Of a stretch of DNA of 64,000 nt, positions 1,206-11,134 are shown in pieces (position 1 is the first letter of the stretch; each line of letters starts with the position of its first letter). The DNA comes from Alkalicella caledoniensis. Its GTDB lineage: Bacteria > Bacillota > Proteinivoracia > Proteinivoracales > Proteinivoracaceae. The translations under genes and the position numbers were made by a program. A model generated the notes under the pieces. The model saw nothing but the letters and a program-made list of their open reading frames with translations. It ran no database searches and was not told where the DNA came from. The DNA lies in NCBI RefSeq assembly GCF_014467015.1, contig NZ_CP058559.1:1426001-1490000 (forward strand). The letters are read 5' to 3'.

Positions 1206-3325
1206 AGTATTGGCAGTGCTAAAAATAGCATGGCTGTGGCTGCAGCTACTATCCCTGAGTCATTTAAAAACAGTGCTGCCAAACTGCCTGCTAAAATAGC
1301 TTTTACTCCACGATAGTGCTTCTGTTCTTTAATAAAGTCGAATTTCTTAGGAGGATAAAATCCTAAAATTATTGTACTTACTAATAATACACCAAAAATT
1401 CTACTCCAAATACTAAATTGCACAAGTTTCCAGTTCATTGAGAGTTTTCTAGTGATGGCCATCAAAATCTCTTCCATGCGATTTACATTATCACCAGCAA
1501 ATAATCTTCCTATATGTGTCTGATTTTCCGTCATTGTATTTAAAAGTAACATTGCAGCTACAGCTAAAACAAATATTCCACCTAAGGCAAGGATGTATTT
1601 ATATAGTCCTTTGCCTTTTTTTACGTCTGTTAAGGCAACACCAAAGGTTACTGACAGAGCTAAGGTTCCACCGAAGTTTGTTCCAAAAAATGGTGCCATC
1701 ATAATAAAGATAATTGCCCCATATAACACATACAACCATTTTTTAAATTTCGCATTTTCCATAAGGGGAAGTGTGGCTATAATAGAACCTCCTATTAAAA
1801 CACCCATGTACTCATTTCCTACTCCGTAAAACCTAGCCCCAGCGATTACATCGTATCCAAGTATAGATTGCTTTTGTAGGAAACTATTGAACAATGTATC
1901 CAATAAAACAGATGTTACTGTGATTGAACTTAGTATTATTACCCTGTTAAGTGGGTCTTTGATTGTGTACTTTAGAAGTAACATAATAACCACACACAAT
2001 ACATAAAACAAGCCTAGATAAATCACTAGAGGCAGTGGACCAAAGACAGGCATTATAAGAAATGCTAAAGGCCCTGCCATAGAAACTAGCACAAGATAAC
2101 TGAAAAAATACTGAGGTAAGCTCTTGAGTTTAGTGTTCACCAGTGCAGCCACTACAAAAATAATAGTTATTACTATAAAGAACCTTATGGTAAAAGGACG
2201 TTGATTGAATACTGTATTTATTTGGTTTAAGCGACCTATGATAGTTTGACTATGATCTTCATCAGCTAGTACACCCATGATTGATCCATATAATTCCGTG
2301 GATTCTATACCGTAAGTGGCAAGTATGGATGGCGCTATATCTAGTGTTGTAACCACCCCTGGTCTTTTTGTTGAAGGAGCTGTGAGTAGGGAACCCGCAT
2401 TATCTTTTGTGTAGTGGTGAATCACAGGTATATTTTCCCCTTCTTCCCTCATGAAATAAGGAGCATTTAATGTTAGTAAATATAATTGGTCATTTTCAGA
2501 CATTACATTTAGAATTGAACCAAATAGTTCATCGGTATCTTTAATAGCTTCTATTCTAAGATCTTCAAATTGCTCCAACTGATAATAGCGATAATATTCA
2601 TCTAGTCTATGTAAGTCTCCCGTATCTATGGCAAATACATGACCTAGGTCTAAGTAGCCATTCAAATATTCTACCATTTGCCCATAATCAGTACTAAACC
2701 CTCCTGGAAAGTCAGGGTTTTGGGTTAGTATCCTATCATCAACCACACCATAATTAACTATACCATCAGAGTCCATAAGTATCGCTGCTACATGCCTCTT
2801 TATTTCAAAATCATCAGAGTTACCTAGTACAACACCATTTAGACCATTTGCCTCTAAAAGGGAACCTAATTTCCCTAATTCAACAGTGTGGTACAACTGG
2901 TTGTTATGGTAGATCATATTCTGTACATAAGGGTTAAAAACAGCCTCATCATCTATCTGCCTTCTATTGAATGTTCTATAAAGACCTTCGGCCCCTATAT
3001 CATCTAAAATCTCCCCCTTATTAAAGAAATTAAAACCGTTTGGTGCTAAGGCTCTACTTCCAGATCCCACAGTCATTGCTTGGTTTTCAGAAGATTTACC
3101 CCTTGCTGTAGTATTGCTAAGTATTGCCCACGAACTATTATTGAGTATCTCTTTTAGGGCAGGACCCCCATGTTCTAGCATTTCCCCTGGCAGAACTCTA
3201 TCTATAACAACAATAAAGGTCTTTGGTATATCTCCTTCTTCTTGAGCTTGGGCTATTGATACAAAGCCTCCTAGGGTTATAGCTAATATTAAAATAACCA
3301 CAAATAAACTATAAAATCTCTTCAT
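1154..3325 (-). CDS. Secreted/membrane protein with alkaline-phosphatase-like domain and about 10 membrane segments
   Basis: The 723-residue product starts with a signal peptide (about 1-27). An extracytoplasmic domain of about 330 residues resembles the alkaline phosphatase/sulfatase fold: it starts with an IVVIDR-type strand and ends with a VTTLDIAPSIL segment typical of that superfamily. From about residue 380 to the end it is membrane-embedded, with roughly ten hydrophobic segments. No complete metal-binding set could be confirmed by eye, so enzymatic activity is unproven. The start overlaps the end of the upstream glycosyltransferase gene by 17 bases, so the two are translationally coupled. 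This points to surface polysaccharide or glycolipid work, which is inference. No gene name is recognised. Confidence 0.8.
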   Translation of the reverse strand: MKRFYSLFVVILILAITLGGFVSIAQAQEEGDIPKTFIVVIDRVLPGEMLEHGGPALKEILNNSSWAILSNTTARGKSSENQAMTVGSGSRALAPNGFNFFNKGEILDDIGAEGLYRTFNRRQIDDEAVFNPYVQNMIYHNNQLYHTVELGKLGSLLEANGLNGVVLGNSDDFEIKRHVAAILMDSDGIVNYGVVDDRILTQNPDFPGGFSTDYGQMVEYLNGYLDLGHVFAIDTGDLHRLDEYYRYYQLEQFEDLRIEAIKDTDELFGSILNVMSENDQLYLLTLNAPYFMREEGENIPVIHHYTKDNAGSLLTAPSTKRPGVVTTLDIAPSILATYGIESTELYGSIMGVLADEDHSQTIIGRLNQINTVFNQRPFTIRFFIVITIIFVVAALVNTKLKSLPQYFFSYLVLVSMAGPLAFLIMPVFGPLPLVIYLGLFYVLCVVIMLLLKYTIKDPLNRVIILSSITVTSVLLDTLFNSFLQKQSILGYDVIAGARFYGVGNEYMGVLIGGSIIATLPLMENAKFKKWLYVLYGAIIFIMMAPFFGTNFGGTLALSVTFGVALTDVKKGKGLYKYILALGGIFVLAVAAMLLLNTMTENQTHIGRLFAGDNVNRMEEILMAITRKLSMNWKLVQFSIWSRIFGVLLVSTIILGFYPPKKFDFIKEQKHYRGVKAILAGSLAALFLNDSGIVAAATAMLFLALPILYMFCIDNSDSTSSQLE

Positions 3326-5979: not shown

Positions 5980-6020
5980 GCTGTATAATTGAAGTATCAA
6001 TTAAGAATTGGGTGGGTGCT

Positions 6021-7472
6021 ATGATACAAAATCAACAGTCAATGATTTTAAGTCCATATATGGAGATATATAATTTGGTCGTTCCAAAGGAAAATTTACT
6101 CCGTAGAATTAATGATCTGGTCGACTTCTCTTTTGTTTATGGTGAGCTTAAAGATAAATATTGCCATAATAACGGTAGAAATGCTATCGATCCCATTCGC
6201 ATGTTTAAGTATTTATTACTAAAAACGATTTATGACTTGTCGGATGTAGATGTGGTGGAACGCTCAAAATATGACATGTCCTTTAAGTATTTTCTAAATA
6301 TGGCTCCTGAAGAGTCGGTGATAGAGCCAAGTTCTCTTACGAAATTTCGAAAACTACGCTTAGAAAATATAAACTTATTGGATATGCTTATCAATAAAAC
6401 TGTTGAAATAGCCATTGAAAAGGAAATCATCAAAAGTAAATCCATTATCGTGGATGCCACCCACACAAGAGCGCGCTACAATCAAAAATCCCCCAGAGAA
6501 ATTCTGATGGATCGGTCTAAAAAGCTGAGAAAAGTTATTTATCAGATAGATGAAACTATGAAGGATAAATTTCCTACCAAAAACACAACAGATGCCTTAG
6601 AAGCTGAAATAGACTATTGCCACAAGCTTATTGAGGTGGTTGAAAAGGAAGATGCTTTTGCTCAATATCCAAAAGTAAAGGAACAATTGAACCTTTTAAA
6701 AGAATCAGTTGCTGATGATATTGAACACTTACAAATATCTCAGGATCAAGATGCAAGAATAGGTCATAAAAGTGCCGATACATCATTTTTTGGTTACAAA
6801 ACCCATATTGCCATAAGCGAAGAAAGAATTATTACAGCTGCAACAGTTACAACCGGAGAAAAAAATGATGGGAAACAATTAGAAACACTGATAGAAAAAA
6901 GTGTAAAAGCTGGGATGAAAGTTGAAACTGTTATCGGTGATGCTGCATATTCTGAAAAAGGCAACATTGAATATACAAAAGAGAAAAAAATAAAATTAGT
7001 CGCCAAATTAAACCCATCTGTAACACAAGGTTTCCGAAAAAAAGAAGATGAATTCGATTTTAATAAAGATGCTGGAATGTATATATGTAAGGCTGGCCAT
7101 ATGGCTATACGTAAAGCTCGCCAAGGGAAGAAAAAATTTTCCACTAATCAAACAGACACATACTATTTTGATATAGAAAAGTGTAAGGTATGCCATTTAA
7201 AAGAAGGGTGCTATAAATCTGGAGCTAAAAGTAAGACCTATTCCGTAAGCATCAAATCTGACGAACATACCGAGCAGGCGAAATTCCAAGAAAGTGATTA
7301 CTTTAAAGAAAAATCTAAAGAGCGCTATAAAATAGAAGCAAAAAATAGTGAATTAAAACATAGACACGGGTATGATGTTTCAAAATCCTCGGGTCTAATT
7401 GGCATGGAGATGCAGGGAGCTATGTCAATATTTACGGTAAACCTAAAAAGAATTTTAAAAATAATGGATTAA
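6021..7472 (+). CDS. IS1182-family transposase (DDE type)
   Basis: This is the intact 483-residue transposase of the insertion sequence. It has the N-terminal DUF772-like region typical of the family (DFSFVYGELKDKYC, DPIRMFKYLLLK). The catalytic acids sit in VDATHTRARY, VIGDAAYSEKGN and IEAKNSELKHRHG, in the usual D-D-E order. A cysteine cluster (CKAGH, CKVCHLKEGCYKSG) between the second D and the E matches the zinc-like insertion of this family. ATG 6021 is preferred over the in-frame GTG at 6012 because GGGTGGG lies at proper distance upstream of it. Confidence 0.95.
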   Translation: MIQNQQSMILSPYMEIYNLVVPKENLLRRINDLVDFSFVYGELKDKYCHNNGRNAIDPIRMFKYLLLKTIYDLSDVDVVERSKYDMSFKYFLNMAPEESVIEPSSLTKFRKLRLENINLLDMLINKTVEIAIEKEIIKSKSIIVDATHTRARYNQKSPREILMDRSKKLRKVIYQIDETMKDKFPTKNTTDALEAEIDYCHKLIEVVEKEDAFAQYPKVKEQLNLLKESVADDIEHLQISQDQDARIGHKSADTSFFGYKTHIAISEERIITAATVTTGEKNDGKQLETLIEKSVKAGMKVETVIGDAAYSEKGNIEYTKEKKIKLVAKLNPSVTQGFRKKEDEFDFNKDAGMYICKAGHMAIRKARQGKKKFSTNQTDTYYFDIEKCKVCHLKEGCYKSGAKSKTYSVSIKSDEHTEQAKFQESDYFKEKSKERYKIEAKNSELKHRHGYDVSKSSGLIGMEMQGAMSIFTVNLKRILKIMD

Positions 7473-8341: not shown

Positions 8342-9718
8342 TTAAGCTTGTTGTTCTAGCCACTGTCCTAGTTCATAGGCAACCTTGTAAATATCTCCTG
8401 CACCCATGGTTATAACTAGGTCATTTGGCTGTACTTCTTTCTTTAGGTAGTCTAATATATCTTCTTGAGGTCCCATATAAATTGCTTCTTTATGCCCATA
8501 AGCCTTAATTTTTTCAACGAGTATCTTAGATGTTACACCTTCAATGGGTTCTTCACCTGCTGTGTATATATCTGCAAGTATAGCCTTTTGAGCATCATCG
8601 AAGCTTTGGGCAAACTCTTCTATAAAAAACTTTGTTCTAGTGTATCTTTGGGGTTGAAAAATAGCAATAACTCTACCCATACCCACTTTTTTAGCTGCTT
8701 TTAAAGTAGCCTTTATCTCAGTAGGGTGATGAGCATAATCATCAACAACTAAAACTTCATTATTGTGGATTACTTGGAATCTCCTTTTTGCACCAACAAA
8801 ACTTTTTAATGCTTTATTCACATCCTCAATATCAACACCATTGAGAAGCCCTACAACTGTGGCTCCTAGGGCATTTAAGATATTGTGCTCACCGGGTACA
8901 GCTAGTTCTATTTGCCCTAAAAGCTTCCCTTCCTTGTAAAGATCAAATGTTGATCCCATTTCTTTTAAGACTATGTTTTTTGGGTAATACATATTGGTGT
9001 CCGCTAGACCATAGGTCACTAGATTTTTATCGAAACCTCTATTTAAGACTTCTTTTATGTTTTCATCATCATAATATACCACCGCAGAACCATCTTCTTC
9101 TAGGTTTTTCAAAAAGTCGTGGTACGTGTCCAACAACTTTTCAAAACTACCATCATAATGCTCTAAGTGGTCCGCCTCTATGTTTGTTATTAGGGCAATA
9201 TCTGGGTTATATCTTAAAAAAGAATGATCACTTTCACAGGCCTCAGCCACTACAATGTTACTTTTCCCTAATCTTGCATTTCCTTCAAAGTTGCTTAATT
9301 CTCCTCCAATTAAAGCTGTAGGATCCTTACCGCCCTGTTCTAGTATTAGTGAGGTCATGGATGTGGTTGTGGTTTTGCCATGGGCACCAGCTATTGCTAT
9401 ACCGTAGCCTTGATTCAAAAGCACTGCTAACATCTCTGAACGATGATATATCTTTAAACCCTTTGCCCTTGCTTCAGCAAGTTCTGGGTTACTATCTGGA
9501 ATAGCCGTTGAGTAGATAATTGCTTCGGTGTCTTGAATGTTTTCTTTACTGTGTCCTAGATATATCTTTGCACCTTTGTTTATAAGTCTTTCTACTATAC
9601 TACTTTTATTTAAATCAGAACCACTTACCTGATAACCTTTTTCTAACAATATCTTAGCGATGGCACTCATACCATAACCGCCTATTCCAATTAGATGAAA
9701 TTTGTTTATACCTTCCAT
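8342..9718 (-). CDS. murC: UDP-N-acetylmuramate--L-alanine ligase
   Basis: This ATP-dependent cytoplasmic ligase adds L-alanine to UDP-MurNAc, the first amino-acid step of peptidoglycan precursor synthesis. It shows the N-terminal Rossmann motif IGIGGYGMSAIAKIL, the P-loop GAHGKTTTTSM, EACESDHSFL and DDYAHHPTE, in normal Mur order. The in-frame GTG at 9730 has almost no spacing from AGAGGG. ATG 9718 has it at seven bases and gives the family's usual short N-terminus, so that start is chosen (458 residues). It is first in murC-mtnN. The bases upstream hold an AT-rich tract and then a DnaA-box cluster. Confidence 0.97.
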   Translation of the reverse strand: MEGINKFHLIGIGGYGMSAIAKILLEKGYQVSGSDLNKSSIVERLINKGAKIYLGHSKENIQDTEAIIYSTAIPDSNPELAEARAKGLKIYHRSEMLAVLLNQGYGIAIAGAHGKTTTTSMTSLILEQGGKDPTALIGGELSNFEGNARLGKSNIVVAEACESDHSFLRYNPDIALITNIEADHLEHYDGSFEKLLDTYHDFLKNLEEDGSAVVYYDDENIKEVLNRGFDKNLVTYGLADTNMYYPKNIVLKEMGSTFDLYKEGKLLGQIELAVPGEHNILNALGATVVGLLNGVDIEDVNKALKSFVGAKRRFQVIHNNEVLVVDDYAHHPTEIKATLKAAKKVGMGRVIAIFQPQRYTRTKFFIEEFAQSFDDAQKAILADIYTAGEEPIEGVTSKILVEKIKAYGHKEAIYMGPQEDILDYLKKEVQPNDLVITMGAGDIYKVAYELGQWLEQQA

Positions 9719-9769
9719 ATAATTAGTCACCCTCTTTCTCAGAATTTTACTAAGTTGTTACTACATATT

Positions 9770-9900
9770 ATGATAAATGCCTATTTTGGTTAACTTTATT
9801 AAATATATTTATTATAGGTTAAAAAGCCTAAAATATCCAATTAACTCTATTATCATTATAATGTTACATTCTTTCCAAAAAACTGTCAAATATAAAAAAA
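9770..9900. other. AT-rich tract next to the DnaA-box cluster
   Basis: This stretch is nearly all A and T, with runs such as TTATTAAATATATTTATT near 9793. It contains no convincing gene; the reading frame crossing it has no ribosome site. It lies directly beside the DnaA boxes, the arrangement expected of a DNA-unwinding element, but unwinding is not shown. It also holds the murC promoter region. Confidence 0.4.
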
Positions 9901-9923
9901 GCATTAAGGGAACAAACCTTCGG

Positions 9924-10122
9924 TTATCCACATTGTCCACAGGGTTATCCACATATCAAAGGACTAATTTTGTGGGTTTTTGTCGTTTTTATCCACATTA
10001 TCCACATTATTTGTCGAAATAAACTTTTGAGATTATCCACATTGTGAATTTCTTAATTTAAGGCACTTTTTATATACTTATCCACACTATCCACAGAAAA
10101 AACAGGTGTTCTTTGTGGATAA
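9924..10122. promoter_or_regulatory. DnaA-box cluster: seven perfect and two near-perfect boxes
   Basis: Perfect TTATCCACA 9-mers lie at 9924, 9945, 9989, 9998, 10033 and 10078 on the plus strand and at 10114-10122 on the minus strand. Near matches are TTGTCCACA at 9933 and CTATCCACA at 10087. Several abut with no spacer, suiting cooperative DnaA binding. Genes on both sides run on the minus strand and dnaA/dnaN are absent, so this is more likely a DnaA titration or regulatory cluster than the origin. I recall that a stable DnaA-binding cluster in Bacillus subtilis lies at gcp, the old name of tsaD, the gene adjoining this one. Confidence 0.85.
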
Positions 10123-10123
10123 C

Positions 10124-11134
10124 TTATCCTAGGGGCATGGAAGCATATGCATTGAGTTCTAAATCTGCCCTAACACCTGCTTTATATAAGTAATAGCCCA
10201 CTGTTGCAATCATAGCTGCATTGTCAGTGCATAAGGAGAGGCTCGGTCTAAATAAATTCAACCCTTCTTCATTGCATCTTTTTTCAATAGATTTTCTTAA
10301 GCCACTATTTGCTGATACACCACCTGCTATGATTACATTATCTACACCTTTAAATTTAGCACACTCAATTGTCTTATCAACAAGAACATCTACCACTGCT
10401 TGTTGAAAGGATGCGCAGACATCATCAACATTTATTGCTTCTTGGCGTTGTTCACTATTGTGTAGAAAGTTTAGAACAGCAGATTTTAATCCGCTGAAAC
10501 TGAAATCAAAACTCCCCTTCTCCAAAAATACCCTTGGAAATCCTATGGCTGATGCATCACCTTTTTGAGCTCTTTTATCCACAACAGGTCCTCCTGGGTA
10601 ACCAAGACCCATTGCCCTTGCTATTTTATCAAAGGCTTCTCCAGCAGCATCATCCCTAGTTTGACCCATTATTTCAAAGCTTAGGTGCTTATCCATGTAA
10701 ATTAAATCAGTATGTCCACCTGACACAATAAGGGCCACTAAAGGGAACTCCACTGGGTTATCTAAAAAGCATGCATAGATATGACCAGCCAAATGATTTA
10801 CAGGTACCAGTGGTTTGTTTAAGCCATAAGCCAATGACTTTGCCACTGATACACCAACTAATAGTGCTCCCACTAAACCAGGCCCGTTGGTAACAGCTAT
10901 GCATTCTATCTCGTCTAAAGTACAGTTTGCTTCTTCTAGGGCTTCTTCCACGAGGGGTAAAATACCCTCAAGGTGATGTCTTGACGCCACCTCTGGTACA
11001 ACACCTCCGAAAACTTTATGTATTTCTATTTGTGATAAAACCTTATTTGCAAGAACCCTTTTTCCGTTTTCTACTATGGCAATTGCTGTCTCATCACAAG
11101 ACGTCTCTACAGCTAATACTTTACATGTATCCAA
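10124..11134 (-). CDS. tsaD: tRNA N6-adenosine threonylcarbamoyltransferase TsaD
   Basis: It transfers the threonylcarbamoyl group onto A37 of ANN-decoding tRNAs, together with TsaB and TsaE. The 336-residue ASKHA-fold protein shows VLAVETSCDETAIAI (7-21), EVASRHHLEGILP, the metal-binding NHLAGHIYA and SGGHTDL, and a late FSGLKSAVLNF. The start is TTG with GGAGG eight bases upstream. It is the last gene of tsaE-tsaB-rimI-tsaD, and its stop lies two bases from the last DnaA box. Confidence 0.97.
   Translation of the reverse strand: MDTCKVLAVETSCDETAIAIVENGKRVLANKVLSQIEIHKVFGGVVPEVASRHHLEGILPLVEEALEEANCTLDEIECIAVTNGPGLVGALLVGVSVAKSLAYGLNKPLVPVNHLAGHIYACFLDNPVEFPLVALIVSGGHTDLIYMDKHLSFEIMGQTRDDAAGEAFDKIARAMGLGYPGGPVVDKRAQKGDASAIGFPRVFLEKGSFDFSFSGLKSAVLNFLHNSEQRQEAINVDDVCASFQQAVVDVLVDKTIECAKFKGVDNVIIAGGVSANSGLRKSIEKRCNEEGLNLFRPSLSLCTDNAAMIATVGYYLYKAGVRADLELNAYASMPLG

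Follow-up and report, generated by a model that had tools for sequence, protein, structure and literature searches.

A DnaA-box cluster beside tsaD, conserved in place and strand among Bacillota: a probable ancient restraint on DNA replication

The DNA at the 3' side of tsaD in Alkalicella caledoniensis carries a dense cluster of DnaA boxes that lies outside oriC, far exceeds chance expectation, and keeps its place, strand and spacing in many Bacillota. The cluster probably acts as a long-standing restraint on DNA replication, and we consider it likely that DnaA binds cooperatively to this conserved site and is thereby kept away from oriC. The window, i.e., the whole stretch of DNA that was analysed, comprises 64,000 nucleotides, and its relevant features are as follows.

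9924..10122, + strand: DnaA-box cluster of seven perfect and two one-mismatch boxes, with positions kept in the family alignment
9911..9923, + strand: non-box element AACAAACCTTCGG of 13 bp, abutting the distal box and nearly invariant in the family
9924..9953, + strand: distal triple module TTATCCACA-TTGTCCACA-GGG-TTATCCACA, with spacings of 9 + 12 = 21 bp, seen across families
9989..10006, + strand: back-to-back perfect pair TTATCCACATTATCCACA, a 9-bp tandem
10033..10041, + strand: lone perfect box, 35 bp from the preceding box start, kept in the family alignment
10078..10095, + strand: back-to-back pair TTATCCACA-CTATCCACA, kept in the family alignment
10114..10122, - strand: lone inverted box, adjoining the tsaD stop codon
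10124..11134, - strand: tsaD (gcp/ydiE; TIGR03723, 449 bits), with the cluster on its 3' side
8342..9730, - strand: murC, the downstream gene here, which is not constant among relatives

A box scan confirmed the original prediction of seven perfect boxes and two near matches within 200 bases. Perfect copies of TTATCCACA start at 9924, 9945, 9989, 9998, 10033, and 10078 on the + strand and at 10114 on the - strand, and the one-mismatch boxes are TTGTCCACA at 9933 and CTATCCACA at 10087. Six of the seven perfect boxes thus share one orientation, as had been predicted, and the boxes described as back to back form three exactly abutting pairs with a 9-bp period (9924/9933, 9989/9998, and 10078/10087). 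The adjacent AT-rich tract was likewise real, with a GC content of 27.9% over positions 9740-10123, mostly toward murC. A counterpart of the flanking element AACAAACCTTCGG, AAACACACTTTCGG, recurs in two other families (f2 and f3), and neither sequence is a DnaA box. Both murC and tsaD are encoded on the - strand, in agreement with the predicted common direction of the flanking genes, and the gene order read from the open reading frames is tsaE-tsaB-rimI-tsaD.

Perfect boxes are expected at 0.8 per 64 kb, or approximately 0.0025 per 200 bp, and sites with at most one mismatch numbered 58 in the window, compared with 22.8 ± 4.3 in shuffled sequences; a further perfect box lies within tsaD at 10575. 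The whole genome, a single contig of 3,695,371 bp, contains 88 perfect boxes, seven of them in the tsaD cluster. This is the densest box group of the genome, followed by the oriC region with five in approximately 360 bp; other small groups were found in recJ, next to a gene for a 3D-domain protein, beside hslO, and within a gene that we take to be bshC. At another locus of this genome (615000-619000), the TTATCCACA and TTAGCCACA sites at 841/892 occur again 2178 bp further on, at 3019/3070, which points to a gene duplicated in tandem.

Conservation was assessed in 204 genomes, nearly all of them Bacillota: 59 relatives, 76 usable named genomes, and 69 from the class to which G033 belongs, assigned to the Bacilli on the basis of the TsaD tree. 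Requiring at least three boxes (at most one mismatch each) in a 250-bp stretch of the first 700 bp past the tsaD stop codon, we detected a cluster 3' of tsaD in 103 of the 204 genomes, compared with 0 of 204 inside tsaD and 1 of 2040 shuffled sequences. Counted in 100-bp bins, perfect boxes averaged 0.50 and then 0.46 per genome immediately past the stop codon, compared with at most 0.03 in each upstream bin. Among the 251 perfect boxes within 700 bp, 216 were antisense and 35 sense to tsaD. Absence from close relatives would have weakened the case for a conserved role, and the cluster was present in all of the same-family relatives G001-G004, where box positions were 84-95% identical compared with 38-55% for the spacers. 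Carriers include the Bacilli Kroppenstedtia, Brevibacillus, Planococcus, Amphibacillus, and a Bacillus sp., and, beyond the Bacilli, Sporomusa, Thermovorax, and Alkaliphilus; the class of G033 contributed 42 of its 69 further genomes. Clusters at the same site in intermediate genomes therefore link the window to the Bacilli. No cluster was found within the distances searched in the sampled Lachnospiraceae, Oscillospiraceae, and Lactobacillales, nor in the six sampled genomes from outside Bacillota.

Absence of an adjacent cluster is in part displacement. When 40 genomes without a clear adjacent cluster were re-read over up to 5 kb, ten contained one located 1.2-3.1 kb further downstream. Most boxes were antisense in the eight displaced clusters with full box lists, and the perfect boxes, the only ones listed for the other two, were antisense as well. 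Counting these copies, the cluster occurs in 113 of the 204 genomes and in 58 of the 81 sampled family codes, which bears out the suggestion that its position was kept over a long evolutionary distance. In a TsaD tree of 132 rows, built before the displaced copies were found, the presence label required at least 22 changes spread over deep branches. Because place and strand are shared, we read this pattern as one old origin followed by many losses, for which the tree alone is no proof; the cluster was probably inherited from an early ancestor of Bacillota.

The spacing of the boxes is also regular. Between neighbours on the same strand, 9 or 12 bp were the commonest spacings, followed by 42-45 and 21 bp. 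An antisense pair in 9-bp tandem was present in 68 of the 103 clusters and the 9/12/21 triple in 36, while 40 had a tsaD-sense box (at most one mismatch) within 150 bp of the stop codon. Pair distances above 12 bp followed a period of approximately 10.8-11 bp (nr2 of approximately 95 compared with a null maximum of 12.8 under random placement), part of which stems from the common 9/12/21 module. We also surveyed close same-strand pairs of perfect boxes, which are rare, in eleven complete or near-complete genomes. All three pairs of the window genome, the only pair in each of G004, G026, and G059, and one of two in another genome were located at tsaD, and in two genomes the single pair lay elsewhere. 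In a second set of thirteen genomes, mostly Bacilli, close pairs were few and many were away from tsaD. By this strict pair pattern, G020, G024, and G033 showed no other dominant site; the pattern misses some clusters, as G033 has a displaced one. In G105, which also carries the tsaD cluster, three close perfect boxes on one strand form a further chain approximately 130 kb from dnaA (C1:214212-214289).

The original prediction pointed to a DnaA-binding cluster at gcp in B. subtilis, and this cluster exists: in an in vitro ranking of DnaA-binding regions, the DNA beyond gcp and ydiF is one of the top entries (region 4), with 10 sites and apparent Kd values of 0.15 and 0.33 μM for ATP-DnaA and ADP-DnaA, respectively (PMC4447404). 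Both clusters lie on the 3' side of tsaD (gcp), with 10 sites there and 9 here, and at similar replichore fractions (approximately 0.30 there, at 627,955 in 4.2 Mb, and 0.27 here), and each is outside oriC and one cluster among several. They differ in that the downstream gene is the convergent ydiF there and the same-direction murC here, and in that binding was demonstrated there and is predicted here. Box order and strand were compared with Bacilli other than B. subtilis. With consensus boxes above chance, a site outside oriC and 3' of tsaD, and intermediates in Bacilli, the window cluster fits by position as the counterpart of the gcp/ydiF cluster. The latter is already known; in the literature searched, mostly papers outside subscription journals, we found no account of its conservation across the phylum, its strand preference, its phasing, or its persistence in displaced form, and priority is uncertain.

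On the favoured reading, DnaA would bind the closely spaced, same-strand boxes cooperatively as an oligomer and would be held about half a megabase from oriC. At 0.27 of the replichore, the cluster would be doubled on fork passage soon after initiation, the DnaA available to oriC would fall, and re-initiation would be delayed. For this species, DnaA binding, its assembly into an oligomer, and negative control are predictions; in B. subtilis, DnaA binds the equivalent site (PMC4447404), and joint deletion of six extra-origin clusters, of which gcp/ydiF is one, causes early initiation (PMC5295017).

Under simple titration, neither the position nor the strand would be expected to be conserved. 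Since both are, there is room for an active role resembling that of datA or DARS. One such version, which we hold to be unlikely, is an ancestral Bacillota element on which a helically phased DnaA complex would actively change DnaA, through its nucleotide state or by oligomer disassembly. If so, position and strand would matter, and the cluster would not be one interchangeable sink among several.

A second alternative, to which we assign a rather low probability, is local transcription control, in which bound DnaA would form a roadblock, assist termination, or repress transcription, either of the tsaD operon or of the downstream gene. The site does lie at the tsaD 3' end on a fixed strand, at some B. 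subtilis clusters DnaA serves as a transcription factor (PMC4447404), and promoter-like matches occur upstream of murC (9811-9889, - strand). These matches were, however, not clearly above shuffled sequences (8 compared with 4.8 ± 2.3), and no intrinsic-terminator-like site was found in 9600-10400. In addition, the downstream gene varies in family and orientation: judging by names read from translations, the genes beyond the cluster in relatives are lgt, a radical SAM gene, murC, a convergent ABC-F gene, 5-formyl-THF cyclo-ligase, and others. Such wide variation indicates that the neighbour does not account for the cluster. Local control also fits poorly with the ten genomes in which the cluster is 1.2-3.1 kb away from tsaD, and with the tsaC and yqeG loci, which, unlike those of B. 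subtilis, lacked clusters in 30 relatives each.

It is also improbable, and slightly more so, that the cluster is a catalytic control site for DnaA, promoting ATP hydrolysis like datA or nucleotide release like DARS, rather than a passive sink. The E. coli datA locus acts through hydrolysis of DnaA-bound ATP with IHF; like the tsaD cluster as we read it, it consists of DnaA boxes outside oriC that lower initiation, but it occupies a different locus. DARS1 and DARS2, which reactivate ADP-DnaA and promote initiation, share with the tsaD cluster ordered, fixed-spacing boxes outside oriC and differ in box number and layout; we know of no locus common to DARS and the tsaD cluster. The fixed spacing, single strand, and helical phase suggest a defined complex, and at low concentration the B. 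subtilis site shows a strong preference for ATP-DnaA, with 16-fold more DNA recovered than with ADP-DnaA (PMC4447404). Against a catalytic site, a review states that the regulators of B. subtilis target the formation of DnaA oligomers and not the nucleotide state (PMC5295017). Titration by chromosomal boxes near the origin has also been described for the origin-proximal DnaA-box enrichment of E. coli (PMC12371093), which is broad, regional, and known from one species, unlike the one compact site seen here across a phylum.

That the cluster is, or once was, a replication origin is largely refuted by GC skew and the position of dnaA, and we give this reading next to no credence. Dense DnaA boxes do adjoin an AT-rich stretch, but this stretch is not kept in the family alignment, the boxes are almost all in one orientation, unlike those of oriC, and tsaD and oriC clusters occur together in relatives. 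The dnaA gene, whose product has by sequence the DnaA C-terminus with GGRDHTTVLHA, lies at 1,927,130-1,928,440. It is flanked on either side by box clusters of mixed orientation, and its neighbours include dnaN, rnpA, and yidC-like genes. The tsaD cluster, at 1.436 Mb, is approximately 490 kb away, which corresponds to 0.27 of the replichore. Among the 20 genome stretches sampled, GC skew was negative in 13 of 13 up to 1.92 Mb and positive in 7 of 7 from 1.935 Mb, so the sign changes between 1.905-1.920 and 1.935-1.950 Mb and not near 1.436 Mb, as expected from the earlier proposal that the cluster is not oriC. Chance or neutral accumulation of boxes, which the absence of the cluster from about half of the sampled genomes might suggest, is refuted by the conservation data, because shuffled sequences and the internal tsaD control gave counts near zero and the boxes are kept while the spacers diverge; its probability is negligible.

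DnaA clusters outside the origin tend to be regarded as sinks that can replace one another. Across a phylum, the tsaD cluster appears to have held its location, strand, and helical phase; it persists where genes have been inserted, as the ten displaced copies indicate, and outlasts the B. subtilis ywlC and yqeG clusters, which have no counterpart in the sampled relatives. This points to a single site whose role merits testing on its own in many Bacillota, for which the present, displaced, and lost states form a natural series.

Several further ideas were rejected. B. subtilis has DnaA-box clusters at yqeG and at ywlC, the latter a tsaC homologue; a wider link to t6A genes is disfavoured by the 0 perfect boxes in 30 tsaC loci, and a yqeG/sda-type cluster in relatives by 1 perfect box in 30 yqeG loci. 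Sporulation does not explain retention, as Spo0A is present in 54 of 61 relatives and those without it split into three with and three without a cluster. A fixed distance from oriC is non-discriminating, with tsaD located by hand arithmetic at approximately 0.15-0.55 of the replichore in genomes with a cluster and 0.12-0.50 in those without. The search for a known RNA at the site returned just one sub-threshold chance match, inside tsaD.

Some minor observations concern the neighbouring genes. In Thermovorax and one relative (L027 and L093), a tsaB-like gene lies convergent to tsaD just past the cluster, an arrangement that differs from the order in the window. In L027, a locus of G048, tsaD appears inverted relative to the fork, yet the boxes hold their strand relative to tsaD. 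Within the window, a transposase-like open reading frame of 486 aa (6012-7472, + strand), which we take to be IS1182-like, runs counter to the genes on one of its sides. In the first half of the window, a single 4-kb interval has positive GC skew, and this reading frame lies near it.
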